Below are positions 11,261-61,243 of a stretch of 64,000 bases of DNA, piece after piece. The stretch comes from Owenia fusiformis (Eukaryota > Annelida > Polychaeta > Sabellida > Oweniidae), in NCBI GenBank assembly GCA_903813345.2, contig CAIIXF020000009.1:27564740-27628739 (forward strand), in the 5' to 3' direction. The notes beneath the pieces were generated by a model. The model searched no databases and was not told the DNA's origin. It saw only the letters and a program-made list of their open reading frames with translations. The position numbers and the translations under genes were made by a program. Numbering within the stretch: the stretch's first letter is position 1; each line of letters starts with the position of its first letter.

Positions 11261-11855
11261 AGATCAAACTACCAATAACAAGAGGGCGGCATAGGCTACT
11301 GTCTTGACATTGAACAAATCGAACCCCTGTGTCATCAAGAGGAAATAGTCAAACAAACTACTTCTAATACATCCGTATTAAGTTATCCGCAGAAGTATTG
11401 ATGGAAATTCCAACATAGTACAATCATCAAAGAAAAATTAAGCTGGAAATCGAGAAAGATTTAACATTGATCAAATCTCGATTAATTTTTAATGCTGTCG
11501 ATAGTGTAGGACAATAGTTCCAAACTGTCTAGCTTACTTACACAAAACGTGGATGTGTACCTATGGCCCATGGGCAACTGATAACCATAGCCCTGTTTTC
11601 TTCAACGATGCCACTGAACTACAGATCAATAATTACGAAGATCTAGACAAGAAACTTTATAAGCATTGAATCAATCGTGTCATTGCAAAACAATTGCCAC
11701 TTCCGTCAGCGTGGGATTGAAAAATATAGTGTGACATTCTCGGGTTGAGCTCTGCCGCACACTCATTTGAACCATTGCCGTAGCCAATTAGCACTGCATC
11801 ATTAACATATATTTCGTCTGAATCTCTCCATTGTTGTAAAATACCAAATTCCAAG

Positions 11856-13589
11856 ATGCCTGTTATTCCAATCATCAATAAAGACATGAACGTTGTCATG
11901 GAAATGATAAAGGACAAAATTGCCGAGCCAAAATCCCAACGCAAGATCGTGTTGGTGATAGTATGCATAGCTCTATTGCTAGATAACATGCTGTATATGG
12001 TCATCGTACCTATAATACCCGCATTTCTTAGAGATATCAATGCATTTGAGAAATCGTCAACTGAGATCGAGGCAACTTCCACCCCAGCACCTACTAGTAG
12101 CTCTAGTGCATGGAACGAGACCTATACGTCTTCTTGGATCAATTTCACATCATCCCCAAAAAAGATTACGCCTTTAGTTGATTATAGCGCGGCTGAAGAC
12201 ACATCAGTTGGAATTCTGTTCGCATCAAAGGCCATTGTACAGCTGCTGGTCAACCCCTGCTCTGGAGCTATCATAGATAGAATAGGTTACGACTACCCGA
12301 TGGTCATCGGTTTGACTATTATTTTCTTCTCTACCACTATATTTGCATTTGCCAAAAGTTTTCTTACATTATTCGTTGCAAGAGGCTTACAAGGCGTAGG
12401 ATCAGCATTTGCAGATACATCAGGCCTTGCTATGATTGCCGATAGGTACACGGATAAAGCAGAGAGAACAAAGGCGCTTGGCATAGCTTTAGCGTTCATC
12501 TCATTCGGATGCTTATTCGCACCGCCATTTGGGGGAGTTCTTTATCAATTTGCCGGTAAAGAAGTCCCTTTCGTACTCTTAGCTGTGCTTGCGCTTCTCG
12601 ATGGAATACTTCTCCTTGTGGTCATGAAACCAGTTCGCCAACAACGGAAAGAAATGAAACAATCAGGGAATCTCCCGAAAGGTACACCAATTTGGCGACT
12701 ATTTATTGATCCCTATATCACTATTGCAGCCGGGGCGTTGGCGATGGCGAATGTTTCCTTGGCGTTCCTTGAGCCAACTATTGCCATTTGGATGAAACAA
12801 ACCATGGACGCCGATGAGTGGCAAATGGGATTTATATGGCTACCAGCGTTCTTCCCTCACGTGTTGGGAGTTTATTTGACCGTTAGGCTAGCAAGCAAAT
12901 ATCCCAAGTACCAATGGTTAATGGCGGCTATAGGACTTGCATTAGAAGGGCTATCTTGTTTGATTGTGCCATTTGCTACAAATTTTGGCGTTCTCGTAAT
13001 ACCACTTATGACCATATGTTTTGGTATAGCCCTTGTTGATACTGCATTGCTTCCTACGATGGCGTACCTTGTCGACGTCCGTCACGTTAGCGTGTATGGA
13101 AGCATCTACGCCATCGCCGATATCTCCTATTCACTGGCCTATGCATTTGGGCCGATTGTTGCGGGTGGTATTGTCTCCTCTATAGGGTTTACAGCTTTAA
13201 ACATTGGCATATGTGTTAGCAATGTTGTCTTTGCTCCCATTCTTATAGGCCTTAGGCATATATATGACTATGCCCCATTCAAGAATGAAGAAGATATCCT
13301 TATTGATGGCGAGACCCCGAAACCATCCTATAAAACCTATATGATGAATGATGAGTATGGATCTGGGCAGAAGGAGATTAACACACAAGAGCCAAACCAT
13401 TTAGCTTACAAATCAAGTCACACTGATGATAGTGAAGATTCGGACGAAGTAATTGATACCAATTTACAGACAGTTAATGATAATCAGCCCCATGATCCTT
13501 GGAACGCACCACAACAACCTGTTAGAAGTCCGAACAATCCCTTTCGCCCACACGAAAACTCAAATAATGATTACCAAGGGTTTCGATAA
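11856..13589 (+). CDS. SLC18A3: Vesicular acetylcholine transporter (SLC18A3 type), intronless
   Basis: A 577-residue proton/acetylcholine antiporter of the SLC18 branch of the major facilitator superfamily, which fills cholinergic synaptic vesicles. Membrane segment 1 (about residues 30-58) has DNMLYMVIVPIIP; the tyrosine-methionine form separates VAChT from the monoamine transporters. Asp43 in segment 1, Asp395 (ALVDTALLP) in segment 10 and Asp422 (ADISYSLAY) in segment 11 are the charged residues expected in the family. The lumenal loop between segments 1 and 2 (about 60-115) carries two N-glycosylation sequons (Asn87, Asn96). RGLQGVGSA (176-184) is a family signature. The cytoplasmic tail (about 468-577) has an acidic-dileucine-like signal, EEDILID, like the vesicle sorting motif of vertebrate VAChT. 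The single-exon structure and position just 5' of the ChAT start exon are typical of the cholinergic gene locus. The chosen ATG is the first in frame. Confidence 0.95.
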   Translation: MPVIPIINKDMNVVMEMIKDKIAEPKSQRKIVLVIVCIALLLDNMLYMVIVPIIPAFLRDINAFEKSSTEIEATSTPAPTSSSSAWNETYTSSWINFTSSPKKITPLVDYSAAEDTSVGILFASKAIVQLLVNPCSGAIIDRIGYDYPMVIGLTIIFFSTTIFAFAKSFLTLFVARGLQGVGSAFADTSGLAMIADRYTDKAERTKALGIALAFISFGCLFAPPFGGVLYQFAGKEVPFVLLAVLALLDGILLLVVMKPVRQQRKEMKQSGNLPKGTPIWRLFIDPYITIAAGALAMANVSLAFLEPTIAIWMKQTMDADEWQMGFIWLPAFFPHVLGVYLTVRLASKYPKYQWLMAAIGLALEGLSCLIVPFATNFGVLVIPLMTICFGIALVDTALLPTMAYLVDVRHVSVYGSIYAIADISYSLAYAFGPIVAGGIVSSIGFTALNIGICVSNVVFAPILIGLRHIYDYAPFKNEEDILIDGETPKPSYKTYMMNDEYGSGQKEINTQEPNHLAYKSSHTDDSEDSDEVIDTNLQTVNDNQPHDPWNAPQQPVRSPNNPFRPHENSNNDYQGFR

Positions 13590-20701: not shown

Positions 20702-23700
20702 GTAATGTATATAGAAAGGTAAAAATTAATTGATAAAACATGAAACTTCTTCAGTGATATTCTTTATTTATTTTATTTTTTTTATTATAATTTTTTTATT
20801 TCAAAGAATAAGCATGTTAAAGCAATTGCAAAAAACAATTACAGTACAGTTACATGATAAACATACATTTTACAATTTTACAATACAATATTCTTTATTT
20901 TTATATCACTGTCATATTCCTCTCTCTCAGATTTCGCTATGTCCTACACGTGACTAAAAATAACAAACTTCAACGGAAGTCACGTGACACGTGAATTTCA
21001 AATGATACCCAGTCAGGACTTAGTCCAGTTTAATTTTAGATTCATATATCCCTGGAAGTACACTGATATTTTTTAATTATACATCCATATTTCTTTTATT
21101 CTAGTATGAACAAGGGATATAAAAGTGAATACTAAAACAATTATTAACTTTTCTAAATTGAAAAAACTGTAGGACGAATTATATTATTTTAAATGGTAAT
21201 CACTGAATAAGCAATAGTTTACACCAATACATTTCGTACATCCTAATCTATTTTGTGCTGAAAATTAAGATTATTAGTTGGACAACTCATAAGCCCAGAA
21301 CAGTGGTTCAATAAAGACATTTTACAAAATTAGTTCTCATGGAAAGCATTGGCACAAAAGTATGAACAAGACTCTTATTGCCATTAATGCCATTTCAATT
21401 AATTTTGATTGTTAAGCTTATTCAGAAAATATAAGAAAACATTTTGTGCACATTAAATAATCTATCCTATGAAATATATAATATCATGAGCATAAAGCGT
21501 ATAAAGTGTTGAATTTGTTGATCTAATAATCGATACTTTTGCTACAAAAATGGTAATTTAATATTTGAAAATTAAATGAGCAACTTTTTCAAAGGCCATC
21601 TTTTTTAAGTGATGACAAATAGTATTTAGATGCAAAAAAATATGTTCAAACTGTGCACGGGGTCTTTAACGGAATGTGCATCTGGTAGTTGGTATACAAT
21701 ACTAATTAAATGAACTTGAATTGCACCTTTAAATGTAACTGTATCAATAAGGTGTACCAAAAGTGTCTAACCGAAAACCACGAAGACATCTTCGTATACT
21801 TCATTTGTAGTTCTTTGTTCAGGAGAAATATTCGAATCGTCTATTCTATTTCAATGTCTTATCACTACCGATAAGTCAAACTATATGGCGGATATGTCTA
21901 AGCCAATTACTCCCAATAGTGGGATGAAAAATTGCAGTACCACAAATGAAACGTCATACTTGTCTTTACTGGATGAATTCTATTAAAACACAAGTCATAA
22001 AAGCAATTCTTTTTACCAAACAATAATCCCGAAATTGAACGAGGGTGTATTACGACTCTTTCTGCCATAACACTTTGACCCCAGTTGGAATTGACTTTTT
22101 GTTGTAATTATAAAAACGGAAATCAAATTTTATAGATAAATTTCACATGGGAGTTTGATAAATATAACAAAAACGCATTTGATATGTTTTTAGTATTAAT
22201 TAATGTTTGGGAGCTTTATTTTTTGCTCCAGAAAGTCAATTCTAAAACGGGAATGGGTTGGTGTTCAATAAATATATAGTGAGCCAAATTCGATCCGATG
22301 GTGCGTGAAATTAGGTAAATGGTCCGCCTTGCTGTTAATGTTAGCGTTAAATTAATGTCATGGCATGTCTAATTCGTCAAAACTGGTGATCCAAATGAAA
22401 GATTTTAACACATAAAGCTATCCAATAAAGATAAAGAACGATCGATATGCCTTCACTGAATTACTCTCTTTCTGAGGAATATTGCTCGATGTTCCATCTA
22501 TTCAATGGTTCAAGTATTTAAAATCGTGGCGTTAAAGGCATATTCAAACATTCTATTTTATTTGAATTAAGATGGCACCTTTCCGTAATATGTCTACCAG
22601 AACTTATTGGATATGGAATTGGAGATTGTATTGAGTGTTGGTTTCTGACATCATTTAGAGACACCTTCACAGAGTATCTCCAATGACACTGTTTCCCACA
22701 CCCAGCTATCATGAATTGGCAAAGCATAATGATCAGGTTCTTAGAACTCACTGACAACTACTGTACTACACGTAATGCCCAAATGCCATTCATCTTATGC
22801 CTTGGTCACATTTGCTTTTTCACCACGGCGCCCGGCCGACTGTGTATTTTGTTCAAAATTGACCCATAAGTAAAGATTATTAGGTAGCTGAGCTAGTATT
22901 GCCTATGGATGGGGGACAGTCATTATGAAACACCCTGAAGCTGTGTACAATATTATTTGTTTAGGAATTGATTGGGAAGATTCAGTGTCAGTCGACGAGT
23001 ACAGTATTCTGTAAGAGCACGAAAAACTAATGCAGATCGATTGACAAAACCAAACATTATAGTTAGTCCAGTACTTTTATCGGTATACATTTATAATGTA
23101 AAATGATAAATCAGTATGTACCCAGAGAATTGAGCACATGAACTAGATCAATGAATAGACAAGGGCATATACATATTACATACGGGGTCTATAATGCCCA
23201 GTGTTTATATAATGTTGTATCTGACACTTCTAGAAACATCATATATAAATGGAGGATATCACAATTCTCGAATATTTAACTGGATGTGGTCTTAAATGTG
23301 AAAAACAAAAGTTAAGTATGCTTTCATAGTGAGTGAGTTAATGTGCGACTATTATTTAAATTTAAAAAATGTCACGATTCTTTTTTGAATTATGCTAAGC
23401 ATATAAATAAATCCAGTGCTTCGGGTTTAATTTCTCATCGATCATATTTCTATGTATTATAAATTGAGGTATTTTTAGTAGTATTTTTATTAATGTTATA
23501 TATTTTTGTTTTCTTGTTCTAACATTGCGTAACAAGGGATAGTCTAATCGTATTTTTATTTCATTAAAAAATTTCCACGAGTATTCAAGCTTCCCAACTA
23601 GTTTTTGAAATATATATACGTTCAACATTACAAATAAATTGAATTATTTCAATTATAACTAAATGAAATATATCTATATTTTAGAAACCCCTTCCAAAAC

Positions 23701-26700
23701 TGCCTGTGCCCAGACTTCATGACACTATTGGTCGCTACCTGTTGGCAATCCAACCGTTAGTTAGTGATGAACAATATGACAAAACTGCTAAACTATGTAG
23801 AGACTTCCTGGAGTCTGGCGGGCTGGGTGAAGAACTGCAAGAAAAACTCTTGGACATCGCGGATGAAAGTGACAACTGGGTATGTTATTTAGTGAGATTG
23901 ACAAATGTGTGGTATAAGTGATAAGGGGGTAAAGACAAATAAGAAACATGCTATTGTATAGCCAGTCATTAATATCATGTATATTTAAGTGCCAAAGTGT
24001 GACAATCCTTTCGCAATAGGTTAACATATGTATGAAAGTGCTAAATGAAATATGAACATAACGAACAGAATGTGTTAAAAGTCCCTTCGCAATAGATTAA
24101 CATATATTTACTAGCTGTGAACAATAATTCGTCAATGCTGTAGAGGTGTTCGAAATAAACTTCAAATTGAGACTCAAATACGAGCAAAATGATGTTTCAG
24201 TAAACACCAATTCCATTTGTTCAGTGTCATAATAACATTATAGGTTAATGGTGTTTACTGAAATATATCAGAAAATAAAAAAAATATTTTTAAAACCCAA
24301 TCAAATTACAGAAACTTGTTTGCGGAAATTAAGCTGATTCAAATACTTGTATTCCCTTTTCCTCCATTTTTACTGAAATTGTGTAAGTTCTTATTTTATA
24401 ATTAATTATGGCAACTATTTGTCAAAGTTCGGAGATAAAAATGAAATTTCGCTATAAACATTACAAAAATAATCTTATCTACCTTGGGTTTTCAACTAGA
24501 AGCCCATGTATCTACTAAACCGTTTCATTGAAAACCTGCATGTATCCATTAATGTACTCACGGTACTCATGATTGTCAAACTTCTCGCTTTTATTTCAAT
24601 ACGACTATGTCTTTACAGAATCTATGTGAGAGACCCTTTATCATATCTACCCTACAAAACAACAACCTTGAGATCATTATCAGAAACTTCGTAAAGTTAG
24701 AAATTCTATAAATATATTGTCATGGTAGAATAACAATTATCTTAGGAATCTTCATTTTTACAAGATACTTACACTTACGTAACAATAAGGTAAATTATTA
24801 ATTTCTATAAAAAACGTTTATATGTTTAATTTAGCGCCTGAAATACATAATTAATATGAATTGTTCATTGTTTTTGCTATCTACCAGGTCTATCAGTTCT
24901 GGTTGGACGATATGTATATGAAACCCAGACTCTCATTACCTGTGAACTCTAACCCTGGAATGGTGTTTCCCAAGCAATATTTCGAAGACCAAGACGCCCA
25001 ACTGAGGTAATGAAATACATCTCTATAGTTAAAACATTGTATTCGTACGTATTTAACGTTTTATTTTCATATTTATTTTTATATACATGTAAAAGTTATC
25101 ACACTCCGATTATATTTAAAAAATTACAAAGCATAATAATACAATAAATATTATTATTTACAAAGAATTACGAGAAAGAAGTATTTGTGTACCTAACGAA
25201 CTTTCCTCCAGAGAATATTGGATAGGTTAGGACTTTTCAGATCTGCCACATTTTCGGAAAATAGTATAAAAAAATTCCCCTCGGGAATATCCTGTCCACT
25301 TGCATGTTCCCTCTGCCTGCATGCCTAGGGAACATGTCAGTGGACAGGATATTCCCTCTGGAAAAATATTTTGCACTATTTCACCAAAGGCAATCACTAT
25401 TTGTATAATAATCTGTCCATATCGTCAGCTCCTCTTTTTTAAATGTTAAATAACTCGATAATGACCACATATTTTAGATTTTACGAGGTAGGAGAAATAT
25501 TTTTAATATACAGATACATTTACGAGAGCTACAATTTAGTAGTATAAAATGTCACTCTTTGCTAAGTGCAATCTTCAGTCTCATCCAAAACAATTCCTTT
25601 TCTTTTTCTGCACCACTGTCATGTTTATCCCATGGCCATTGGAGGTATGTTATATTGTTCATCAAAGCTTTCATTTGTGCTGGTACTTTTTCTTTGTCAG
25701 GTTTTTCTAAAAATATTAGTATTATAACACTTCGTCTTTCTTCGAATAGTTTGAGAAGAGCCATTTGAAATTCAAAGCTGCACCATTTGCTCAAAAAGTA
25801 CGCTTTGCTTACGACCATAATCACACGCCGACTGTTGCGCATACACTCTTCAATATTTCCCGTGATTGGTTCTCCAACTTCAAAATCCCGTTGATGAATA
25901 CATAACCGGAAGAGCATCCGCTCGGGATCTAATTCTGGCAAGTTATTGAGATCATATAGTCCGATATCATCTAACAATTCTTGGGGACATCCATCTCTTA
26001 TTGTTTGCTGGACGTTTTCAACGTTTTCACGGAGATCAATGTTTGGAAGTAATTCTGTACGGATCCAGCCAATGTCCTGCCTATTGTACACAACGAATGC
26101 CGAATATTTGTAATGCTCTTTTCTTGTGGTATGGTTTTCGCAACAATCACTACGACATCTGTTGTATCTTTGCAAAAGACACCAGTATTCAATGTGCCAT
26201 CTATACTTCATTAATATGGCAACTATGGCACCAAGGAGCAACAATGGCCCCAATGTCGCCATCACTAGAGCAATTTGAAGATTATGGTCACAATCTATCC
26301 AGCTCAAGTCATAATTCGCAACGGTTTGGTTTTCCATAGACTTTGGCAGACCACATAGCTGATGTACTCCTTGTATCCACGTGTTGCATTCAGTTTCAAG
26401 GTATTTCCTCATCCAGTTACGGAAATCTCGCAACTTGCAGTCACAGAAAAATCTATTTTCTTCAATGTTGATATACTTTAACTTCTTTAAACCATGGAAA
26501 TTTCTAGGGTCCAAATAGGTGAGTAAGTTTCCTTGTAAGTGGAGGGCTTCGAGGGATTTCAGTTCATTGAATATTCCGTCTACAAGGACTCCCAACATAT
26601 TGTTGCTTAGGTCCAACACCTGGATATTTTCTCCCCCGCTGAATAGCCCAGGTACTATTAGTTTTTCGGTAAACTTCGACTCAGCAAGGATGAGTTCTTT

Positions 26701-29700
26701 CAAATTATCTAGCTGTATCTCAGCCACCATTTTACTTAGCATGGTATCCTTGAGAAACCCAAAATCATTTTGGCTGATGTCCAACTTGACTAGATTTCTA
26801 GCTTTTGAGAGCATATTGAAAAACTCGATGCCTTCAAATCTGTCCTGGTTTCGATACACCAAAACATGAAGTTGATCTAGTATAGTGTCTGATATATTCA
26901 CATTCACCAATTTTGTTCCGATTTTGATCATGTGGAGCTCCCTTAGTTTTGGCAGGTTGTAAATCTGGTACTTTAGAGGGTCGAGTGTGTTGCAAATAGT
27001 TAAACTTTCGAGATTTGGAAGGTTGGAGATAACGACTGGTTTTTGTGTACTCGTGTGGTCCTGTAGATTACATACTTTTAAACGTTTCAGGCTTTTAGGG
27101 AAATGAGCTGACATGGGGGATTGACGGTTATCTATTATCATTTGATCAAACTCTAAGGCTCTAAGTCGCTTTAGCTGCAACAATGATTTGTTGTTTGGTA
27201 GATTTGTCATATTCAGCGATATCAAGCTCTTGGCTAAATGCATAAAAGCATTACATTCATATCTCCAAATATTATTACCGGATGTATCTAAATGTTTCAC
27301 TCCGGTCTTCTTCAATGGCTCGAAAAATGAACTGTTCAGGAATGGTACAGATATACCACAATGCGCAAGGTTGAGCGAGTTGACTTTCTTATATCGTAGG
27401 TTATTTAAAAGGTCATGGATGCACGTATTTAAATCATTTCGGTCGAAAATTAGGGCGTCAAACCTTTTAATCTTATTAAAACAACCAGTTTCCACCTGTC
27501 GAAGATTATTTCCTGACAAGTCTAGGGACACAATTTTAAAAACGGAATAGTATGTCATTCCATCCTTAGTTAGAGTCTCGATACCCGCCTTATTCGTTGC
27601 TATCACCCTCAACATCAGGCCAACGGTATAGCCTCCTATCCTTGGATAGGTCTCCAAAGACAAATCAGTAACAGACCCGCTCTCAATGTCCGCCCGAATT
27701 CTGCTTTGTTTGAATTGGTTTGTTCCATAACTCTCAACCATAAACACTGGTATCTGTCGTATTGCACGACCATTTAGAATTATTATGTGCAAGCAAGGTA
27801 CATCTTTCAGAATAGATCGATAGAAATCTGATTCTAAAACAACTTTATTGGTCTCTAACCGAAGCTCTTCAAGTCTATCTAGGTATTTTAGTACGTAAAT
27901 ATTCATGTCTAAAATGTCGACGTCAATGCTAAGCATGATTAGCGATTCGGGCAAGATAAAATGTCCAGAGATGTTCGTATTCCCCTCGAGGTTCAAAACC
28001 CTTAGTTTTGAGAGTTGTGCTAGAGACTTTTCGGATATGTGGGTGATCATATTGCGACTTATGTTGAGAAAGAAGAGGTTACTGACTTCAATGAAATCGT
28101 CATCTGACAATTCCGTTATGTTGTTCCCGCTCAGGTCGATGTGGTTTACATCCGGGAGCCCTTTAGGAACTTCTTTTAGACCCCTATAGCTGCAATCCAT
28201 GATTTTGATGTCATCCACTGTACTTTTACAAGTACAAATAGCTGGGCATTTCATGACAATATGATGAAGATTGCATTTATTATCTCCGGGTTGTATTTGG
28301 AAAACTTTCTGGTTTTGAACAATCTCTATTCCGTTACGCCACGACTCTTTGTACAGATAGACAAGGCCGAAGACGTATACAACTGCTAAACCGATCAATA
28401 CCCTTTTGAGTGCACGTCTTCTGCAGTAAAAAGGCATTCTTCAAAAAAGTCTGGCAATACCATACACAATCTGGAAGTATACAATAACGGACTAGTCATG
28501 TGACGAAGCATATCACAAAAAGTATTCCCAAAACGCAAGCACAATGCTACGCACAACTGATGTAAGTCATTGACAAATCGTTGTTCAATGTAGTTATACA
28601 TGTTCGAATGCAGACCTCCAGAATAATAATGAATAAAATACAGAATGATAAATTAATAATGTATTTACCTTCTTCCTCCAAGATATGAGCACAAGTACGA
28701 AGTTTGCCTGCAAAAAGTTCCGCCTGTCTTGCACTGTCTATTGCCTGCAGTTAAAGGCTAGTGGTGTCTGGGTGTGACACTATAAATGACAACCTCTTAA
28801 ATACTGTCCGGCAGTGTTGTTCTAAATGAATATATATAATAAATATAACTTCCTTGTATATGAACTCGATTGCACTAAACATGAAATCCGATAACACATG
28901 TGTACTAGATACAAAAGGTTTTAGGGACTCGAGTGTTTTATCATGTCTCTCGTAAGTGACACGCTAAATTATAGACTTTGATAACATTTGTAATTTTTAA
29001 AGTTCGAGGGTATGTGTACTTTTGTAAAATGAAAGTAATTAAAGTAATCACGTGATTTGGTCATTCGAATAGTACCTGTGGATTTTGTGAAACAAAATTG
29101 CCAAGAAACGAAAAGACGTTATTTACATTACCACCAAATTAAAACTACATTTTACATCAATGAATGAAAACCAACTAGTATACAAAGGAGCACATGAACA
29201 AGAACTGGAACTACTACCTGCGGGTAAAAGACCGGAACCAAAACACACACATGAGATAACATTTTCCTCTTCTGTTTGACCAATCAAAGGCTACTCTCAA
29301 TAACGATAACAAATCTACGAGGAGTACAGAGTCTATATGTCTGATAAACATAATATAAATGTAACAAATAATTATATAAGTCAAGTAGTCAAAAACATAA
29401 ATCTCATCATTAGTTACAAAAATTTTAAAGAGCGGACTGATTAATTATGATTTTCGACAATGTTAATTTGCTAATATTTAATTTGTTTAAGGATGTTCCT
29501 TTTAGGTTTACACTTTTTTGTAGAAATATAGACGTTTTATCAAATAAAGGTTTCTGGGATCCCAACGAGCAAGAATAATTTCAAAACCTAGTTAGTGTGT
29601 TTTTTTCTTATCCAGATAGTATTGATATTTGACAAAGTTGGTATGATTCTTGCAATGGAATTCTTAGAAAAAAAATCGGTTTTCACAAATCACAAGCTGA

Positions 29701-32700
29701 AGAAACTTGTTCTGAAACCCCTAAACATCTAAAATCACCAAAAAGGAATAAGTGGGCTAGACCGCCAGTGGGACGTTCCTAAAGTACACACAATAATACT
29801 CAATGTTTTTTCGTTTTCCCCGAACATTATAATGTTTGTGTGACATGCACATTATTTTGGAGAATATTTCTCACTTAGAAACAATGACGTTTCAGAATCT
29901 TATTGACCTAGATCCATTGTACGACAACACATGACCTATAATAAGTAGAGGTGTAACTCGCCAGAAAAATCCAACTCGAGTTCAACTTGCCAAATATTTC
30001 CAAAACTCGAGTAAAACTCGAGTTCATTCATTTCGTCCAGTACATATTGTAAACCCGGGTATACAAAATTACTGTAACTTTAAGCGGCAAGATTCTCTGG
30101 TTTAGTCACATCAAAAAGGTGTTTAACACGTTGGGGCCATAAGAAAGTGTGGTATTCATTGCAGTTATCTCATATTTCAATCAAAAACGATCTGGTATAG
30201 ACGTCGCCGCATACGGTAAGGACGAGAGATCGCTAGAATCTAACCAAACAATATTTTTGAAAACCCAGAAGGGCCCCTTAAATTAATGAATGGTTTTCCC
30301 GGATTATCTTCATTATTTATACTAAAGACTGCTGTTTATCGATCTAAAGTTAAGACTTATGATCTTAATTTAATGATAGATCATCTTTTTCATGTAAAAG
30401 TTGTGTAAACGACGTGAGAATAGGGGGACCATTTTTATTCAATTTTAGTGACTACTCTATTATCGCCCGCTAAGTTCCTTCGATATTCGATCTTTTTCTG
30501 ATTTTTTTTGGTGTAACTCGTCATTCCACGATATTTGTTGAACTTTGTGAAGCTTTCAGAGTGTTTTTTAGGTGACGGGCGCTAAATATGGCGATCATTG
30601 GTATATTTATTCCACTAATGAAGTAATGTTGCACGATCTTTGGGACCCGAATTCATTTTACATGCTTGCAAGATAGGCGAAACTCGCGAGTTGACTCGAG
30701 TTATAGCTAGCTCGCGAGTTGAAATAGATTGCGAGTTTCTAGAGGACAACTCGAGCCAATGTATAGGCAGCTCTGACGAGCTGTACTCGAGTTACTGACT
30801 CGGGAGTTACACCTCTAATAATAAGATGGTCTGAGATAACCATATTTTTGATAAAAACTATTTTCTTCTTAAAAACTATTTTCAGATTTGCCGCCCGTTT
30901 AATCTCTGGCATATTAGACTACAAGACAATAATAGATTCGTAAGTGTTATCAATATCAGACATCATTTTAAACCATTACTTAGAATACGTATATTGTATA
31001 TGTTTATGTAGATTATAATGTATAACATAAATATATAGTAAAATTTAGATCATATAGTATAATGTAGAAAATGCTAAAATGAAATATAATACCTGCATTT
31101 CTTATTGCTCTACATGTATATTCTTTCCTTATTCAAAGGACGATTCTCGGTTTGGAGAACGAAGTTCATCAATCTAAATGAGCATTATCCCTGCTTCGGA
31201 AAATTTGATTGTTTTACATAATATAGCTTTGAATGTCTTCTTTTCAATAGTCATAATTTAATTTGGGTAATATTTCTAGATTTTTCGCAAAAAATATTAG
31301 CGCAGTACACCGTGATGGACTTCTTTCCCCAAATCGAGACTTGTATTTTATTGAATCGGCCAAATTGAGCGTTATCCCTGCTTCAGACCAATTTGTTATT
31401 TTTACATCTTGTAGATTTAAATGTCCCCTTTTGAATATTCATAGTTTAATTTGGGTAATATTTCTATATTTTTCATGAAAAAAATTATTAGCTCAGGAGA
31501 CTGTTCTCCAAACCGAGAATCGTCCTTTAGTTTTTTAACAATTAATAAGATTCACCAAAAAGAGTGTAGTGTAATGAATAAGCCATTTTTTATAACAATT
31601 ATTGTAGTTATACGCTTTATACAAATTGTAGATCTAGAAGGATATCCAGCGGATTATTGTATAACATATATATAACTAGACATGTAAATTGAACAAGTTC
31701 AATTTAAGACTCCAGATTTAAGACTTGTTTTAAGCTGAGTCATCCAATTACTTGTAAGCTGAGTCATTCACTATAAGCTGAGTCAGCTAGAATATAGACA
31801 TTTAGACAACTCTTAAGAATGTTATCTTCGACTCCATATGCATGACATGGGGATATCATCATATCGACTTTTCGAGACTTCAAACCGCTATTACTATCTA
31901 ACCAGAAGTTTGATCGAAAATTGGTTTGCAGATTCGGATTCCTGAGAAAATTCTACTCTTAATTCATAACTCATATGTAAAATTTGGAGAATTTTTCATT
32001 TTTACCTACTTTTCGGACACCATATCTCAAAAGTGGGTCAAAATACTCTCTGACGGCAAAAGGCTAACACTATTAGCCCACTCTTTGCTACCTGTATACA
32101 AAATTTTGAAGCAAATCCTAAAAGTGTAGTGCCAGAATCGCAAAAATAAGGAAAAACTATGTATTTGACCTAGATTTTGACCTAGGGATTTTGGTGTCCA
32201 AATTTTAAAGCTAGATAGCCTTCGAGGTCCCCTTCTTTTATAGACTTTCAGAATCTTAAGCTGTACTCAGTCTTTATCTGGAATTATACACTTCAAAAAA
32301 ATCTTTGATCTTCGATTTTTGAGCTTTCAAAACGCCATAACTTCCCAACGAAAAGTCGGATTGAAATTTGGTTTGCAGATTCGGATTCCTGAGAAAATTC
32401 TACCCTTAATTCATAACTCATAAGTTAAATTATGAGAAATTTCAATTTAGACCTACTTTACGGACACCATATCTCAAAAGTGGGTCAAAATACTTCCTGA
32501 CGGCAAAAGGCTAACACTATTAGCACACTCTTTGCTACATGTATACAAAATTTCAAAGCAAATCATTAAAGTGTAATGTCAGAATCGCAAAAATAAGGTA
32601 AAACTATGAATATGACCTAGATATTGACCCTAGGCATTTTGGTGTCCAAATTTTGAAGCTAGATAGCTTTTGAGGTCCGTTTCTTTTGTAGGCTTTCATT

Positions 32701-35700
32701 GTGTGAAGCTGTACTCAGTCTATATCTCGTATTTTACACTTCAAAAAAATCTTTTTTCCCATTGCCATAACATGGGGCACCAAATTTAGCGATTTTTTAG
32801 CTTTCAAAACGCCATAACTTCCGAACCAATAGTCGGATTGAAATTTGATTTGCAGATTTGGATTCCTGAGAAAATTCTACCCTTAATTCATAACTCATAC
32901 GTTAAATTTTGAGAACTTTTTATTTTGACCTACATTTTGGACACCATATCTCAAAAGTGGGTCAAAATACTTTCTGACGGCAAAAGGCTAACACTATTAG
33001 CACACTCTTTGCTACATGTATGCAAAATTTTGAAGCAAATTATTAAAGTGTAGTGTCAGAATCGTAAAAATAAGGAAAAACTATAAATTTGACCTAGATT
33101 TTGACCTAGGCATTTTGGTGTCCAAATTTTGAAGCTATATAACTTTTGAGGTCCCCTTCTTTTATAGGCATCCATTATATTAAGCTGAGCTAAGTCTATA
33201 TTTCGTATTTATCACTTCAAAAAAATCTTTTTTCCCATTGACTTAACATGGGCACCAAATTTAGCGATTTTTGAGATTTCGAAACGCTATTACTTCCGAA
33301 CCGGAAGTCGGATCGAAATTTGGTTTGCAGATTCGGATTCCTGAGATAATTCTACACTTATTTGATGATTCACACGTTGAATTTGGAGAACTTTTTATGT
33401 TCTGACCTACTTTTCGGACGTCATTTCTCAAAATCGGTAAGAGTAATCAAAAAACGATTTGCCTTACGGAATTAGCTTTTTATCTAAGGAACATGATGAA
33501 AAAAACCAGGAGCAAAAATACCGAAGGACGACTGAGAAAACTTGTAAAATAGTGAAAACCCACGATTTGACCTAGTTCTTGACCTTTGACCTAGATAATC
33601 ATTTGACATAATTTCCCAGAAACTAGGTATCATTACCTAGTTGACTATGTTAGCAGATTTAAGTAAGCCCTTCTAGTTGCTGAGAAAACTGGTTCGGAAA
33701 GAATAATAATAACTAGATTGGTAAATTGAACAAAGTTCAATTTAAGACTCCAGATTGATTTACTTGAGTAAAGAGCTGAGTAGGAAGCTGAGTACGTAGA
33801 TGATTAAGTAATTGAGTAAGTAGCTGAGTAGGTAGCTGAGTAGGTAGCTGAGTAAGTAGCTGAGTAGGTAGCTGAGTAAGTAGCTGAGTAGGTAGCTGAG
33901 AAGTAGGTAGCTAAGTAGGTAGCCGAATAGGTATGTAGGTAAGTAGGTAAGTAGGAATTGTTGAAAGTATATTTGATGGATCTGCATTGTGGATACTGGC
34001 AAATGTGAAATTTTAAACAAATGTGAATTTTAAAATGGTGTAGAATCTAAACCGGGAGTCGGATTGAAAGTTGCTTTGCAGATTTGGATTCCTGAGAAAA
34101 TTCTACCCTTAATTCATAACTCATAAGTTAAATTTGGAGAACTTTTTATATTGACCCATATTTCGGACACCATATCTTAAAAGTGGGTCAAAATACTTTC
34201 TGACGGCAAAAGGCTTACACTATAAGCACACTCTTTGCTACATGTATACAAAATTTTGAAGCAAATTATTAAAGTGTAATGTCAGAATCGCAAAAATAAG
34301 GAAAAACTATGAATTTGACCTAGATTTTGACCTTGGCATTTTGTTGTCCACATTTTAAAGCTAGGTCGCCTTTGAGGTCCCCTTCTTTTATAGGCTTTCA
34401 TTATGTTAAGCTATACTCAGTCTATTTCTGGTATTTTACACTTCAAAAAAAAAACTTTTTCCCTATTGACATAACATGGGGCACCAAATTTAGCAATTTT
34501 TGAGCTTTCAAAATGCCATTACTTCCGACCTGGAAGTCGAATCAAAATTTGGTTTGCAGATTCGGATTCCTGAGAAAATTCTGCCCTTATTTCATAGCTC
34601 ATATGTTAAATTTGGAGAACTTTTTATTTAACCTACTTTTCGGACAGCATATCTCAAAAGTGGGTCAAAATACTTTCTGACGGCAAAAGGCTAACATTAT
34701 TAGCACACTCTTTGCTACCTGTATACAAAATTTAGAAGCAAATCATTTAAGTGTAGTGTCAGAATCGTAAAAATTAGGAAAAACTATCAATTTGACCTAG
34801 ATTTTGACCTTGCGATTTTGGTGTCCAAATTTTAAAGCTAGATAGCCTTCGAGGTCCCCTTCTTTTATAGGCTTTCATTATGTTAAGCTGTACTAAGTCT
34901 ATATCTCGTATTTTACACTTCGAAGAAGTCTTTTTCCCCATTGACTTAACATGGGGCACCAAATTTAGCGATTTTGAGATTTCAAAATGCTATAACTTCT
35001 GAACCGGTAGTCGGATCGAAATTTTGTTTGCAGATTCGGATTCCTGAGATAATTCTACACTTATTTGATAATTCACACGTTGAATTTGGAGAACTTTTTA
35101 TGTTCTGACCTACATTTCGGACGTCATTTCTCAAAATCGGTAAGAGTAATCAAAAAACGATTTGCCTTACGGAATTAGCTTTTTTTCTAAGGAACATGAT
35201 GAAAAAAACCCGGAGCAAAAATACCGAAGGACGACTGAGAAAACTTGTAAAATAGTGAAAACCCACGATTTGACCTAGTTCTTGACCTTTGACCTAGATA
35301 AAAAGTTGACCTAATTTCCCAGAAACTAGGTTTCATTACCTAGTTGACTATATTAGCAGATTTAAGTAAGTTCTTCTAGTTGCTGAGAAAAAGTGTTCGG
35401 AAAGAAAGAAAGAAAGAAAGAAAGAAGGAAAGAAAGAATAATAGGAAAACTGGCAAAAGCAATAGACTCCAGATTTTCATCTGGAGTCTAATAATAATAA
35501 TAAAACTGGCAAAAGCAATAGACTCCAGATTTTCAATCTGGAGTCTAATAAATTACTGGTGAATAAAAAAAGAGATATAGATTATGAATTGTTGCCTATG
35601 ATTCTGGCAGTGAAGAGTGAAGCATAAACTTTATCAAGAGGCAATTCAAAACACTTTCCATAACTTTTGTTTCCAGACACGATCTCCCTATTGACCGGTG

Positions 35701-38700
35701 CACATCAAGAGAAAAAGGACAGCCACTATGCATGAATCAGTATTACCGTTTGTTTTCCTCGTATCGAGTTCCAGGGGTGAATAAAGACTCTTTGGTCATA
35801 TCTAGCAGTAGTATAATGCCGGAACCGGAACATGTTATCGTCATATGCAAAAATCAGGTATGATATGGAAAGGACCAGCCTGAAGTGCCACGATTCACAG
35901 GTGGTAGAGGGTTTTCGTGTGGGTAATATGGGTAGTAATAACTTTTCTTTTTTTGAGGGAAGGCCTCTCTCAGAATAGTTTAGCTACAAGCTTTTGTGAC
36001 CCCCTCTACTTGACTGAACTCGTTCCGCAGATGTGTGCAAGGGCTTGACGCAAGACTACTCTCAGAATACGTTTGTTTAAATGTCAAATGGTTTTCTTGC
36101 AAATATTATTCGTTACGCCTTCTTGTAGACATTTTTTGGAAGATAGGTTATTGGGTTTCTTTTAAGATAACAAATGTTATGGTTTACAAATGTTAAGATT
36201 CAGATCATCTAAAACATCGAGAGGATGAAGATATTCTAACCATTCAACTTGCAGGTCCATCCCCAACTATGCAACAGTCAAGTATTTCAAATTATGTAAA
36301 TTTTGAAAATGAAGAGCTGGACAACTCTATGATAAATGAGGAGGCAACATACCATGAGTGGGCGATCATGACACCCTTTTTCAAATTTCGACGAAACGAT
36401 TTAGAAATACTGGGAAATGTTAGGTTTATGAATACACTTGAAGATGTAATATAGGTCAAACGTATCTGATCATCAGAGTTGTTTTTCAAAGGAATAAATT
36501 CAAAAATATATTTTTACGCACATACCCCATCACGATCATGACACCCTTTTTCAAATTTCGACGAAACGATTCAGAAATACTGTGAAATGTTAGGTTTATG
36601 TAGACACTTGAAGATATAATATAGGTCAAACTTATCTGATCATCAGAGTTGTTTTTCAAAGAAATAAATTCAAAAAGATATTTTTACGCACATAGCCCAT
36701 CGCTAATTTGAAGCTCTTGGTTATTTTTACATTATCATTAAAATCCTAGCGATAATATGCCATGGGTAGGATGATTGTGACACTAAAACCATTTTGTCGC
36801 ACATACCTTGTCCCTTGCTTGAAAATTACCTTTAAATTTGGTTTCAGTTTTTCGTTCTGGACATTCTTGTCAACTTCACACGCCTTAGTGATGATAACAT
36901 GTATACTCAACTAAAGAGGATCGTAAAACAAGCGAATGAAAGTGAAGAGGACAATGAACTGAATGAGCCAATTGGGATTCTTACAAGTCTAGACCGAGAT
37001 AGCTGGGCTAACAACCGGATACGACTTATGAACGGTATGATATCCATTATTCTGATAAAGATACAAGTGATTATGTATTGTGGGAAAATTTAGAACGTTT
37101 TGTTGTTAAAGATGGCAGCACATCTGAGATCTTTTACTGTGGTTTCAGCTACAGTATAAGATATCCAGAATAGTCCATGGTATGAAATTCCTAGGGCGCC
37201 TAATTAAGGAGCTAGTAACACAAAATAGTGCAGCGATATTTGACTTAATATTTACATACCTTCACATGTCCAGTATTGTTTTTTAACGTTCAATATTCTT
37301 TGGGATTTTGACCCGAATTGTGCATTACATTAGCAGGAGTCAAAAATATTCGTAAAAACTAAATCCCCCTTTTTTACAATTTGGAGTACAACTGCTACAG
37401 AAGATTATTTGAAATAAATTTTGAGTGTATGTTTTACGTTTCTCAACTATAAATTTGATATTTATTTTTCATAAAAATACAAAAAAATACGTAATCACTA
37501 CTAATCAGCACATCGACATTTTGAATTATTTTTTTCAATATTGGTGATGTAAATGGTATCAATGAATCGTTTTTATATGAGAATGAAATATGCTAAAATT
37601 ATTGTTGTTTTAGAAAAACGGGTCGTTATACTTTTTGAGATATGGACTGTCGCCGTCGGGGTCAACTATCAATAAAGGGGGCGTATTGTTCTTCATTGAC
37701 TTACTGTGGCTTCGGCTAAAATATTGAGTAATATCTAGTTAGATATTGCTCAGTTGTTTATAAAACAAACACCAAGACCTGGTCGAATTCTTGAAGCTTT
37801 GAGGAAAAATGGTTTTGATTTTCACCAAAAATCTGATAAGAACCAGAAGTTATGTCTAATTGAGTATATTACCATCAGAAAATCTGATGATATGCAGCAG
37901 TAACGTCGAAAGAGAAATTTAACACGTTTGATTGCATAAATCTCTTATAAACTATAAGACATGCCCTCTGAATATATAAACGTTCTAATACCTCTATATA
38001 ACATTCAAATAGATATATATTTTAAATATTTGTCATTGTTTTATGTTTTATAAAACATTGGAGATTATTTTTTGTTTGACTCCTGGCGATGATAGGTACA
38101 ATTTCATTACATAAAACGTTGAAAAGTTAAAACCTAATATATTTGAGATAATGAATTTTTTAAATAATTCACACAATTTTGTCGAATCTGCTTGACCAAT
38201 ATTTGAAAAAATAAACAAAATAAAATAAGCACATTTATATAATTACACTAATTAACCATCAGAAATTACATTGAAAATAGAAGTAGGGCTGACAGTTGTG
38301 TTATAAAAAGGGACGAGACGAACTTCTTAACTCTGGTATACAATTAATGCCAAACAAAAATTCTATATTATATAAGTTTGCATTATGGTCTCCAGATTCC
38401 ACCAACCGAGATACACTAGACATGATAGAGAGATGTATTTTCGTACTTTGCCTGGACAAGCCCATGCCTCTTTCTTTTAACCACCAGAGAAGCATTGACG
38501 AGACCATGCATAACCTCCGCGATGACGTATCGCTGGCCAGTCAGATGTTACATGGCTCTGGTAGCAAATATAACAGCTGTAACCGGTGGTTTGATAAAAC
38601 AATGCAGGTATAATACAATCATCACAATGGATGTTCTTAAGGGAAATTCACATAATTAGTTTTATTGGTAACATCATTCTATATGTATTGCGCCTAGACT

Positions 38701-41700
38701 GGATAACAATACTTTAAGTTATTGAATGATTTGAAGTGCAATACAGGATATATTCTGTTCGAGAAATTTTGTATTGGAACGAGACAAAGTCGAGTGCCAA
38801 TACAGAATATCGAGACAGAATAAATCCTGTGTTGCACTTCAAATCATTCAATAACGTTTTTATCGTGTGATCCTCTGTATTGCTACTGAGATTGTCCCCT
38901 CCATACCAATATTTTCTGTATTACGACGGAGATGAGGAACGGGGACAACCTCAGTAGCAATACAGATTGGTACAGCACAAGAACTGACCAATCAGAGGGC
39001 TTCATTTTACAGATCATACGATAATTAAAATTATTGAATGGCTTGAAGTGCAATATGAGACCAGTTGCAATACAGGATATATTCTGCTCGAGAAATTCTG
39101 TATTGGAACAGACGAAAATAACATATAGAAATACATCAGTTCCATTAGTTTGTAGTGGATTATTTAGCAATTATTAGAAAGGATCTTACAAAAAATAATA
39201 ACTCAACAAATTACAAATAACAAACTTTGTATGAAAAATCAGCATGGTCGTAAATCATTACAGAAAAGCACAAAAACTAATATAAGATGGTGATATGTAA
39301 TCTGTCAAATTGGTAAATCCTAATTAGGTACTAATAGATATAATGTTCAATCTGCAGTCAAATTCAGCTTGCCGTTGTCATGGGGACGGTGTATACATGA
39401 CACTGTTTATGTGTGTATCCATGATTCTTGTACAGAAGATATGAGAAGTATTTTCTAGTATTCACTTGCGCAATATCGTTTGTAAACCTAATGTCTGTGC
39501 AAAATTCGACTCAATAAAGTTGATGTAATCTAAAAATAGCCCGGATGCATTAGAATTAGTATATATGCAATGAAATTATATGAAATACTGTGTTCTGATT
39601 GGCTGGAATTAGACACACCTTGCATAGCTATGTGTGAATAATCGATATTGAACAGCTACGTATTTACTGGTCCCCGCCTGTTTATAAAGACGTTACGTCT
39701 TATAACAAAATGGATGAACTATACTAAATTTTCATTCTCATCATTTTCACCAAGAAGGAGGTCGATTTGTATCCAATTTTTTACCCGTGTGTTAATTGTA
39801 ACACCTGGTTAATAAAAAGCTAGTCAGTCACCAGCAAATATATCCAGCAGCTCCAATAATCGAGTGAGAACACCTCACTTCAAGAACCAGGTCGTTATCT
39901 GGTGGGTTTCATAACGTCCTGGTGGCTAAATGTGTAATGGCCTATTATCAACATCCTGGTTGCTGAAGTGATTCGATTATTGGAGTCATTGGATGTATAT
40001 ACTCTAAACTGATTCGCTTTTCAGTAACCTGATGCTACTATTAACATAAGGGTAAAGCATTTGGATACAAATCGACATTCTTCTTGGTGAAGATGCTGAA
40101 AATATTGTCCTCCAATGGAAGTTCATCCATAACGTCTTTGTAACCAAGTGGGGACCAGCGGTATTGCAAGAACCTTTGTGTTGAAAATCAACTTTTCAAT
40201 ATTTTCTTCCTTGATCTCCCAAGGCCTCAGTTCTGACTTGTGGATTAGGAAACATTTTCGTATTTTTCAGTTCATAATTTCCGAAGATGGTGCCTGTGGT
40301 TTATGCTATGAGCATTCCCCCTCTGAAGGGATTGCTGTTGTCCGATTGATAGAACATCTATTAGCTTACATGTGAGTATATAAGACATTTGATAAAAGGT
40401 TAACAAACATCTTATAAAATCTTATGGGGATTATATGACACTTCAGAACATGATATAATCCACATTCATCCAAAGCTCTAAGCCAGAGGTTTACTTTGAA
40501 TTAAAATATTTTTGAAGTGGTAGACACTTGTTAATGAATTGTTTGAAAAATAATAGATTTAATCGTATCAATTTATTATCTTCGATTCTTTATCTGTCTT
40601 CATACAAGCAAAACAAGAGCAATAGTCCTATTCGCGTTAGGAAATTACTGGTCATTAACATAAATATTTCCCGCAATGCAACACGATAAAATGGACAATT
40701 TTCTATTGGTCCGCAAAACACAACGTCATAGGCATTATCCCGATCCAACATTAGTACATATGTATACTAATATTCTATAATCCAGACAATAATTAGAAAA
40801 GAAGATGGAAATTCAATTTGCTTCGATTATTTTTCTATGGCGTCTGAGCAAGTTCCGGGAACTGAGCAAGTTCCGGGAAATCTGTGACGTCACTTGAATT
40901 TTAAACTTAGGATTTTGACGATTCTGGTGAATATATTTTTTAAAAACTTGTCAAATGTCTTTATAATGATCATATCTATCGTATGTGCAAATATAATTCA
41001 TGATAAACCTCTAATAAAGTCACAATGCGTCATTGAAAAACACAGCCAATGTTATTCCAATGGGGAAGTGCCCGGATGTTGAGAAAGTTGTACCACGAAA
41101 CTGAACTCTCCAACGCGGAGATAAGAATATTTCGCACATTAAAAGTTAGCGCGTATAGGTATATTCTGTAATACACTGGAATACAATTCTGCACTTCCTC
41201 ATAACATTTAGGGAAGAAAAACGAAAGAGGCGATTACCCAGAATGCATTCCATATGCGAATTGGCCAAGCCAAGAAAACTCCACTGGAAGACAGATGTGC
41301 AGGTCACAAAAGCAATACAACACGCAAAGTACACTTTAGATAAGTATGTTGTAATCTCTTATATCATATTACATCCGTTTTGCAATCGTAAGATGCTCTA
41401 TTATAACGACATTGACCTTCTCTGAAATGATAAAAAGGAAACGTTACCCTTATAAACCATGATTAGTGTGTTATTAATCCAGTCACTCAAGCGATAGCAA
41501 TAGTTCACAAACTTATAAAGTATAAAGAATTAATTAGACAGAATATACAGGATCGTATTACCTTATATATCTTGCCCTTGTTTAGTATAGCTCATTATCT
41601 AATCTAAAGCTCAATGACACTAGGAGTGACGTATTTTCTTTCTTAGAAATGTCAGTTTTGAGTAAGCATAAGCTTTTCACTAGATGAAAACTGGAAAAGT

Positions 41701-44700
41701 AAATACACAATTACCGTATACACCATGCATTTGCTTCCTATTTTACATTGATTCGGTAAAAAATAACATTGCAAGAAATTTTTTATTTATTTTTATTTAT
41801 TTTTATTTATTTATAATCATATTCATTTAGTATTACATTAACAGAGTTGGCACCCATAAAAGGGCATATCAGTGCTAAAATCAAAAGTTGTACAATACAA
41901 AAATATATTACAATTTATATAAATTGAATGAACTAAGAAATACAAGTATAGATATCATGCCAGTTCATGTTATAAAATACAACAATATACAAAAATGCCT
42001 GCACATAAACAGTTCTCATAGCAATTCTCTTAAGGTGTGTCCAGATCATTTTATATAAAGAAATAATTCTATTTGCAGGCTAATAACAACATTAGATCTC
42101 TATTGCTTGAGATTTGAACATTATGGAAAGGACTTCCCCAAATCCCAGAATATGAGTCCGGATTCATTCATTCAACTGGCTTTACAATTGACGTACTACA
42201 AGTAAGTGTATTACATGTTATAAATACCGTTCAAAAGAATCCAATTAAGATTGTCTTATTGGAGCGATTTTTGGAGACATCTTGCACGTATACAATACTA
42301 TAGTTATCAAGTATCTTTCCGTATTTTGGCCCTACAATTTAACAGATTACACTATTAGTCCTCTCAGGCTATATATAATACATAACGTAGAGTGGGTCAA
42401 AACGTCCATATTTCTTATTTTGACATATTCTCATTATGCACGCATGGATTTCAGTGATATGTTCGCAGGAGATGCAACAATGCCTTATACTTGTAGAAGT
42501 AACAAAAAGTTCTAAAGGCAAACCCAATGTCCTGTGTAAAAACCCATAGTCTTACTAATAAAAATGAATCTGTGAACTAAGTTCAAGGTTATTAGAGATT
42601 CTGACTGCCATTTTATTACATATTTAAAAAAAATTATCCCCGAATAGAAAAAATTGACGTTTTTTTGGCCAACCCGCTGGAGAAACATGTGTAGCGCATG
42701 GCGTACTGTTGTTCTGATTGATTTAATATGTAACTCATTCAGAGATTTCAAAGATTTATCAGAACTAAATGTCAGTACATGATTGTTCTATAATTACCTA
42801 CATGGTTTTTAACCTTGGTGTAACTGCGAACGAGTTAAAATCATTCCCAAAGCTGCATTTTCGAATGCAACTTTCGGCTGTCGGCTACCGGATTAACCTA
42901 GTTTTTTATGACCAACTCATTTAAATATGAATGGAGTAATGGCAGGTATTATTCATATCTAAATAAATTACCCATAAATATAGTTGGTTAATCCGGTAGC
43001 CGACAGCCGAAAGTTGCATTCGCGACTACAAGCTTAGTTCTATGTGGGCTTATCACACTGGATATAGCACTAATGTTATAAGCAACATTGTTGACATGGA
43101 ACAGACTTTATTAGTAATTGTTACTCGGTATATGGCATACATTCATGGTTGCGCGGTATTTGTGATACGGGTGAATATGCCATACTCACCTGCGGTATAT
43201 GGCATATTGCGCAGGTGAGTATGCGATATTCCGCAGTGAATATGCGATACATTGATTTCAGTGAATACCCGATACTCACCTGCGGAATATGTCATACTCA
43301 TTTGCGGAATATGCCATATACCGCAGGTGAATATGACATATACCGCAGGTGAAAATGTGATACAGAAAGCCTTGATTTGATTGGTTGCGAGAATCGACTC
43401 TAAATGTAAAACTACGCTGGATTACCAATATAGTTAGTGCGTCGAGTACTAATATATGAATCCTGGATTGACTGAGTAAGTTAATTACGTGAGATTGGTG
43501 ACTGATACTTCTGCTAAGTTGATATATTCGATACACAGAACTGTTGATTCAATAATCATTATAATAATTTATTAAGTTTTACTTGTTCGTTCAATCGATG
43601 CAATTGACAATTGCGTACTTCCGTATCACGTTCTCATTGGTTAGTGTGTATACCATATACCGCAGGTGAATCTGTCATACACCGCAAGTGAATATGCCAT
43701 ATTCGTTGCGGAATATGACATATTTTTGTATCGTGTTTACCGCGTAGCAGTAATAACAGACCTAGTATGTAGTTGAACAAACTTGGCAAAATAGAACATT
43801 TATAATCAACTAAGCTTGTATTCGCGAATGCAACTGTCGGCTACCGGATTAAATGTTGTGGGCAACTCATTTAAATATGAATAGTAACTGCCACTATTCC
43901 AATCATATTTAAATGAATTGCTTATACAATAGTAGGAACCCGGTAGCCAGTAGCCGAACGTTACATTCACGAATTCAATACAAGGTTGGAAATTCAAAAT
44001 CAATGTATTATGGTTTAAAACGATGGTGGAATCGTCTTATTTTATGCATGACGTATACTAACACATATCTCATTGGTCCTTAGGGTGCATGGGTGCCTCG
44101 TGTCCACGTATGAGAGTGCGTCCATCCGGCGTTATAGGAACGGCAGAGTTGATGTAATAAGGTCTGCCCATATGAAAGCCTTGGAGTGGGTGAAAGCTAT
44201 GGTTGGCGAAACTGAATGTGATGTAAGTTAGCCATCAATCATGATGAAAATTAATGTCAGTGGTATAATTATTTCCGTCGAGACATGCTTGCCATACCGA
44301 TCGACCGATAAGTTTAGAGTCACCTCGTCTCATTTATTTCAAGAAGTCAACTTGTAACCAATGTAGTTAAGAAACGGATACTAACTAGGGAAATGAAGAA
44401 TCTGGAAAAAGAGCTGTCATTTTGTATGTATTTATAATGTATCATCATTTTTAGGAATTTAAGCATTGGATTCTGACCAACGTGCTTATACAAGTGCCAA
44501 AATGGGAAATAAGGAAATAAAAAAAACAGTATATGCAATTAAAAAATAATTCAGAGCAAATCCTAAATATCCCAAAATATGAACTTACAAAAAAGGAAAG
44601 GATGTTGAACACTCCCTCACCCATCACGTCTAGTCTTATTTCAACTTATAGTTGTACAATTTTGAGTTGATCACGTGTCTTCCACGTGCGCGTGTATTAT

Positions 44701-60629: not shown

Positions 60630-60630
60630 A

Positions 60631-61243
60631 TGCACCCCCCTCTACAGCAAAAAGTCCTTAATGTGCCATATCGTGTCATACCTCATTTGAAAGATAATTT
60701 AATTCTGGAGTTACTCATCAAATTTCATTTAATAAAACTTGATATTAAAAAAGTAACATTGTTTCAAAGTTTGCTACTTTGGCACTTTGTTTGCTGCTCT
60801 GTTACTGGTTAAAAGTCAAATCGTCAGAAAGTGAAATATGAAAGATTTACCCCAGATTTCAACTGCACTGACCATATGAGTTCATTTCTGAAAAACATGG
60901 TATAGGAACTGATGGGCAAAGAGCCTCTTGAAAAAAAAGACACAGGAACGATATATTTCTGAAGAATGTGAGGAAAGTGTGAAGAGGATTATGCAATGCT
61001 ACACCTTTATGGGAATTTTTATTGAAATCATATCCGTCCAGATAAGCTGCTGTTTGAGCAGCAACTAGTGGTCATACCAACTACTAAGAATCAGCTGTAA
61101 ATCTGTAGAAGTATATGATATAAAGCTAAAATTTATCAGGTAACTCCAGAATTAAATTGTCTTTAAAATGAGATATGATACACTATGTAACATTAAGTAT
61201 TTTTTTGCTGTAGAGGGGGTGCCGTTGTTTTTTGACACCCTGT
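60631..61243. mobile_element. Inverted-repeat DNA element hit by the retrotransposon
   Basis: The left arm (60631-60722, CTCTACAGCAAAAAGTCC ... AATTTAATTCTGGAGTTA) is the diverged reverse complement of 61139-61219 (TAACTCCAGAATTAAATT ... TTTTTTGCTGTAGAG). The right end may extend to CAGGGTGTC at 61236-61243. No transposase frame. The retrotransposon target duplication lies in its left arm. Confidence 0.65.

Follow-up and report, generated by a model that had tools for sequence, protein, structure and literature searches.

Nested genes account for about 6% of the genes of D. melanogaster, 2.1% in C. elegans and 0.5% in human, and they often run in the opposite direction to their host, as given in the part of PMC3786989 used here. 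The same part describes 2mit, a Drosophila gene nested in tim2, and this nesting was retained in the honey bee but not in four Lepidoptera. Another nested arrangement is the cholinergic gene locus, for which the available portion of PMC7524744 reports that in ticks the VAChT open reading frame (ORF) is an exon within the first ChAT intron, with exon 1 common to both genes. As to Toll-like receptors (TLRs), the excerpted text of PMC8609888 states that they radiated several times independently in Spiralia. Here, we describe a stretch of 64,000 nucleotides from the annelid Owenia fusiformis (contig C9, positions 27564740-27628739; called the window below), in which a TLR gene lies antisense in an intron of the choline acetyltransferase gene (ChAT). 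The genome searched for comparison comprised 498,259,871 bases in 525 contigs. Our reading, to which we give a probability of roughly 0.8, is that this is an ordinary, intact, antisense intron-nested member of a large, dispersed and mostly single-ORF TLR family, with no dedicated coupling to ChAT.

The plus-strand host is an intact choline acetyltransferase gene. Matches to PF00755 on the plus strand between 23.7 and 45.9 kb located the ChAT exons, and 13 coding exons with AG/GT borders could be joined without interruption into an open frame that, with the stop at 46021, is 1902 nt long. These exons, with two still short of full length, were assembled into 625 residues and compared with solved structures, and ChAT (1q6x) ranked first with an E-value of 1.9e-189, followed by carnitine acetyltransferase with 3.6e-152. 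The exons at 24888-25006 and 30886-30939 enclose an intron of 5,879 bp (25007-30885, plus strand), the longest of the ten ChAT gaps measured, two of which hold further exons (41242-41343 and 45057-45119). An earlier interpretation made from the letters alone, called the sequence-only reading here, had numbered the two enclosing exons 3 and 4; it picked the right flanking exons, but they are the second and third among the exons found, and the additional upstream exon could not be placed.

The whole TLR coding sequence (CDS) lies within this intron on the minus strand (25552-28437), and it is one ORF of 961 codons from ATG to stop; the ChAT frame continues unbroken from the exon before it to the exon after it. 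In 200 mononucleotide shuffles of the host intron, open frames reached at most 173 codons. Pfam recognized LRR_8 (9.8e-28, five stretches), LRR_4, TIR PF01582 (1.5e-17, above the cut-off) and TIR_2 in the protein, while LRRNT was marginally below its cut-off (25.7 vs 25.8 bits). Against solved structures, phmmer listed the IGF-binding protein acid-labile subunit, which is a leucine-rich repeat (LRR) protein, first and then TLR3 and TLR5; the matches limited to the TIR domain were TLR7, TLR2, TLR1, TLR10 and others. A hydropathy peak at about 721-744, between the LRRs and the TIR, is the predicted transmembrane segment, and a second hydrophobic stretch at the N-terminus (about 10-28) was taken as a signal peptide or anchor. 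One cysteine cluster was seen by eye before the transmembrane segment, and Pfam called no LRRCT model. With predicted extracellular LRRs, one predicted transmembrane segment and a predicted intracellular TIR, the protein is a TLR by its sequence, so the claim of a complete 961-codon TLR antisense in a ChAT intron was correct.

Both a nucleotide search with 24600-25600 and a search with the TLR protein led to C6:12.557-12.561 Mb. We aligned 17 kb of C6 to the window and found that the plus-strand segment 24560-30968, with losses, corresponds to C6:12553823-12561379 in reverse orientation; the decayed copy as a whole covers C6:12552992-12561379. The collinear window pieces, all in the same orientation, were 24560-25516, 25902-27686, 27608-27740, 28100-29070, 29159-29197, 29183-29605, 29599-29945 and 30865-30968, and they are adjoined by pieces of 36151-36701. 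C6 therefore holds the upstream ChAT exon, the TLR, the downstream ChAT exon and part of a later ChAT intron in the order of C9. The TLR on C6 is broken by two large losses, one of which removes the TIR end, and by frameshifts and stops; it also carries about nine extra 75-bp in-frame tandem units in the ectodomain part, and one base is missing from the second flanking ChAT exon. The direction of copying was most likely from C9 to C6, because these exons belong to the intact gene on C9 and the PF00755 search showed no further ChAT-like exon nearby on C6. Since the exon-TLR-exon order is the same on C6, the nesting is older than the duplication. The same order, found twice and in diverged form on two contigs, also largely answers the concern that a TLR contig had been misjoined into ChAT. 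In addition, there is no N in the window and the splice borders on both sides preserve one ChAT frame. An assembly artefact is thus scarcely credible, and the continuity of the assembly, on which the sequence-only reading had made its claim depend, held up.

The two copies were then compared site by site, with the alignment columns near breaks being uncertain. In the TLR CDS, 83 of 2082 aligned sites differ (95 more are gapped), against 129 of 1461 in the host-intron stretches 25010-25551 and 28841-29945 (Fisher 4e-9). The differences at codon positions 1, 2 and 3 numbered 17, 25 and 41, with about 694 sites each. Nei-Gojobori counting over 684 codons gave 32 synonymous differences in 432 sites and 51 nonsynonymous differences in 1620 sites, which means dN 0.032, dS 0.078 and dN/dS 0.41 (Fisher 1.8e-4). 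This substitution pattern looks typical of purifying selection on the C9 TLR, and a ratio near 0.5 would be expected if one copy is constrained while the other decays freely. In the two flanking ChAT exons, differences were seen at 2 of 122 sites (a range that takes in three intron bases) and at 2 of 53 sites. Just 5' of the TLR ATG, at 28438-28840, 19 of 402 sites differ (p 0.007 vs 129/1461), and such low divergence might be that of a promoter or 5' untranslated region.

A genome search with the PF01582 profile, in which 150 of 152 candidates were scored, returned at least 123 TIR matches, mostly in open frames of hundreds of codons. Twelve other regions were looked at more closely; they were not a random sample, since six were top protein matches and six were hand-picked from the TIR list (three of the latter, C11, C7:39.27 Mb and C2, also occur among the protein matches). 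They contain 13 other TLRs, every one of which is encoded in one ORF of 765-957 codons. Among the 48 of 434 protein candidates scored, the best match outside C6 was C3:14271106-14273301, with 32% identity over residues 64-801, and TIR-only stretches elsewhere reached 40%. The phylogeny against other TLRs of the genome, which the sequence-only reading had proposed, was run on 8 TLRs, and it grouped the ChAT-intron and C3 TLRs with 100/100 support, but on long branches (2.2 and 1.88), so the placement is unsure.

These results bear on the suggestion of a retroposed or transposed TLR copy. If the mRNA of another TLR had been copied into the intron, a single ORF without introns would be the result, as is seen here, but the 13 other TLRs are single-ORF too, so the lack of introns is uninformative on retroposition. 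Nor was a close parent found, with no long match above 32% outside C6 among the 48 of 434 candidates scored, and the C6 sequence itself appears to have been copied from the ChAT locus. No long T-run, which would be the A-tail of a minus-strand copy, was seen by eye in 25010-25551, although age could have erased one. We therefore consider retroposition distinctly unlikely. Instead, we propose that a TLR that was already intronless dispersed at the DNA level into the ChAT intron long ago. Its transcription would start at a promoter of its own just above 28437 and end in the intron near 25060, where two AATAAA motifs (25060-25077, minus strand) lie 3' of the TLR stop as candidate polyadenylation signals; this motif occurs in the window at chance frequency (171 observed vs 161 expected). 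The product would act as an independent membrane receptor signalling via its TIR, and ChAT would splice the TLR out together with the host intron. No dedicated coupling would be expected between the two genes, and mild collision might occur when both are transcribed in one cell. The transcriptional interference or co-regulation raised by the sequence-only reading is possible. Later, 24560-30968, without a mobile element described below, and the pieces of 36151-36701 would have been copied to C6, where the TLR decayed.

Nesting of other TLRs was surveyed over several kb on each side, and 21 different ORFs and one join were sent to Pfam, none of them from the C3 region. At C10:10100839-10103343, a plus-strand TLR is flanked by exon-like ORFs of the minus strand, at 10095962-10097467 and 10106334-10108792, and Nbas_N exons, the 5' part of NBAS, are located further upstream on that minus strand at C10:10122541-10157391. 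This TLR is probably nested antisense in NBAS, which we hold with moderate confidence. For the ORFs downstream of it, four single ORFs and a five-piece join matched no Pfam family, and the best PDB row was an unrelated enzyme with E 0.075; a search for Sec39 at C10 was empty, but Sec39 gave no match in any control genome either. In other regions, an M14 peptidase gene on C4 runs on the TLR's own strand and ends before the TLR, and on C7 a DUF3419 ORF and an astacin exon each lie on one side only of their TLRs. A host gene was thus seen in 2 of 13 TLR regions, ChAT included, which is a rough lower bound, as few of the ORFs in each region went to Pfam. Judging from these sequences, TLRs that lie antisense in introns seem to be a by-product of a large TLR family with dispersed, intronless members.

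The NBAS case matters for another explanation, a selected neuro-immune pairing, in which the TLR was kept because ChAT is tuned by antisense transcription or by enhancers common to the two genes, or because the same cholinergic cells use both. Such a pairing would fit with a nesting that predates a duplication of dS about 0.08 while the C9 TLR frame stayed open, with bases above the TLR ATG that diverge about as little as the TLR CDS, and with a host locus that already contains VAChT (in tick, in the first ChAT intron and with a common first exon, according to the portion of PMC7524744 available). But a second TLR that is probably nested in the unrelated NBAS means that no specific tie to ChAT is needed, and age by itself is no proof that the placement matters. 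We thus judge a selected pairing unlikely.

The TIR of the ChAT-intron TLR differs from its relatives. An alignment of 8 TLRs showed that about 34 residues are inserted between box 1 and box 2 (25936-26037, minus strand; the borders vary with the alignment), an insertion absent from the 7 other TLRs aligned. The usual BB loop of TLRs is RDxxPG, a motif that is common but not defining. After the insertion, the BB loop of this TLR reads RDFEVG, whereas the other 7 have R(D/N)F(I/T)PG. The insertion is also present on C6, near-identical apart from single changes and a 2-base gap, so it predates the duplication. A cryptic mini-intron was considered as well, and in-frame GT..AG pairs do exist, but C6 divergence in the insertion is as low as in the surrounding CDS and the acceptors look poor. 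An exonic insertion is preferred over a mini-intron, but not proven. Together with the lost BB-loop proline, it could alter adaptor use. A bolder scenario would make this divergent TLR a long-held member of a three-gene neuro-immune cholinergic locus, in which immune stimulation would act in cis, through transcription of the TLR, to repress or tune the synthesis of acetylcholine; we find this very unlikely.

Several points weigh against an ordinary nested TLR as the full account. With an insertion in the TIR and no proline in the BB loop, ordinary signalling is not assured. A piece of ChAT intron 2 diverges just as little (17 of 325 sites) as the bases above the TLR ATG, which weakens the argument for a promoter there. 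The ratio of 0.41 blends the C9 and C6 branches, and the C6 copy may have stayed functional for a while. On C10, we presume a resemblance to NBAS for the exon-like ORFs that lie downstream of the TLR, but Pfam and PDB are silent on them. Finally, we infer, rather than observe, an own promoter, TLR expression and the absence of coupling to ChAT.

Mobile elements in the host intron helped to order these events. A palindromic, dispersed repeat resembling a miniature inverted-repeat transposable element (25243-25412, strand not given) is also found in the C6 copy, and because it is in both copies it is older than the duplication. An inverted-repeat mobile element of 872 bp (29946-30817, strand not given) is absent from C6. 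It is flanked by an 8-bp target duplication, ATAATAAG, at 29938-29945 and 30818-30825, and C6 has a single empty site at this place, so the simplest reading is that the element inserted after the duplication and on C9 only. We take the 8-bp duplication to fit the hAT superfamily. At least 36 other near-full-length places were found in the genome with 87-99% identity (40 of 544 candidates scored), including one on C1 at 99%, and the element was probably active recently.

The other ChAT coding exons, all on the plus strand and all part of the joined frame, are located at 23685-23879 (the first found, with a PF00755 match), 35677-35857, 36848-37034, 38396-38607, 40271-40371, 41242-41343, 42079-42201, 44084-44222, 45057-45119, 45360-45500 and 45737-46021 (with the stop). 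Seven candidates for the first ChAT exon were considered, and none was convincing. Upstream of ChAT, and also on the plus strand, a single frame of 601 aa from stop to stop (11784-13589) matched the VAChT structure 9kkn with 3.3e-171; a first or shared exon was not found among the exon candidates searched. By sequence, VAChT and ChAT together identify this as the cholinergic locus; the sequence-only reading had named neither VAChT nor the C6 copy. The position of VAChT in ChAT intron 1 is inferred only from other animals (tick), because the first ChAT exon was not found. The ChAT intron following the TLR intron has two arrays of a 477-bp tandem unit (32313-33433 and 34046-35136), and at 36363-36701 there is a 170-bp tandem unit for which the C6 copy has several overlapping matches. 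In the rest of the window, 56001-58000 has a strong composition skew (GC -0.238, AT +0.264) unlike the remainder, with just one short tandem array listed, and open frames of 105, 199 and 174 codons at 59427-62398 on the plus strand had no Pfam match and possibly belong to a neighbouring gene. An Rfam scan of the window at gathering scores gave no match.

The sequence-only reading knew of no described case of such a nesting. In the open-licence literature, judged by titles and the start of abstracts, we likewise came across no TLR described as lying in a ChAT intron or in any other intron, and no further gene nested in ChAT; but genes that lie antisense in introns are in general common, and 2mit is an example that encodes an LRR transmembrane protein. 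What the present locus offers is a nested pair whose relative age is bounded inside one genome, by a decayed duplicate that includes both the host exons and the nested gene. The locus also cautions against assuming a functional link from the presence of an immune gene within a neural one, if the immune family has many intronless members dispersed through the genome. Should the nesting turn out to be conserved, with matched expression, it would become a test case for neuro-immune regulation in cis.

Among known systems, 2mit is one of those close to the TLR, as each encodes an LRR transmembrane protein and runs opposite to the unrelated gene whose intron it occupies, and the closest structural template for the LRRs of 2mit is TLR3 (PMC3786989, in the part used). 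Unlike this TLR, however, 2mit has two exons and a Ser-rich cytoplasmic part, that part of the source does not mention a TIR, and the host is tim2. Within the cholinergic locus, VAChT is likewise a single-ORF gene inside ChAT, but it lies on the ChAT strand with a common 5' exon (ticks; PMC7524744, in the portion available), whereas the TLR runs antisense to ChAT, occupies a later intron and is unrelated in function. The V-type/scc TLRs of Spiralia share the LRR ectodomain, the transmembrane segment and the TIR (PMC8609888, in excerpt). Such TLRs have only one LRRCT, next to the membrane, and the single cysteine cluster seen by eye near the membrane in our protein might correspond to it. The ChAT-intron TLR is set apart from the 7 others aligned by the TIR insertion and the BB loop without proline.

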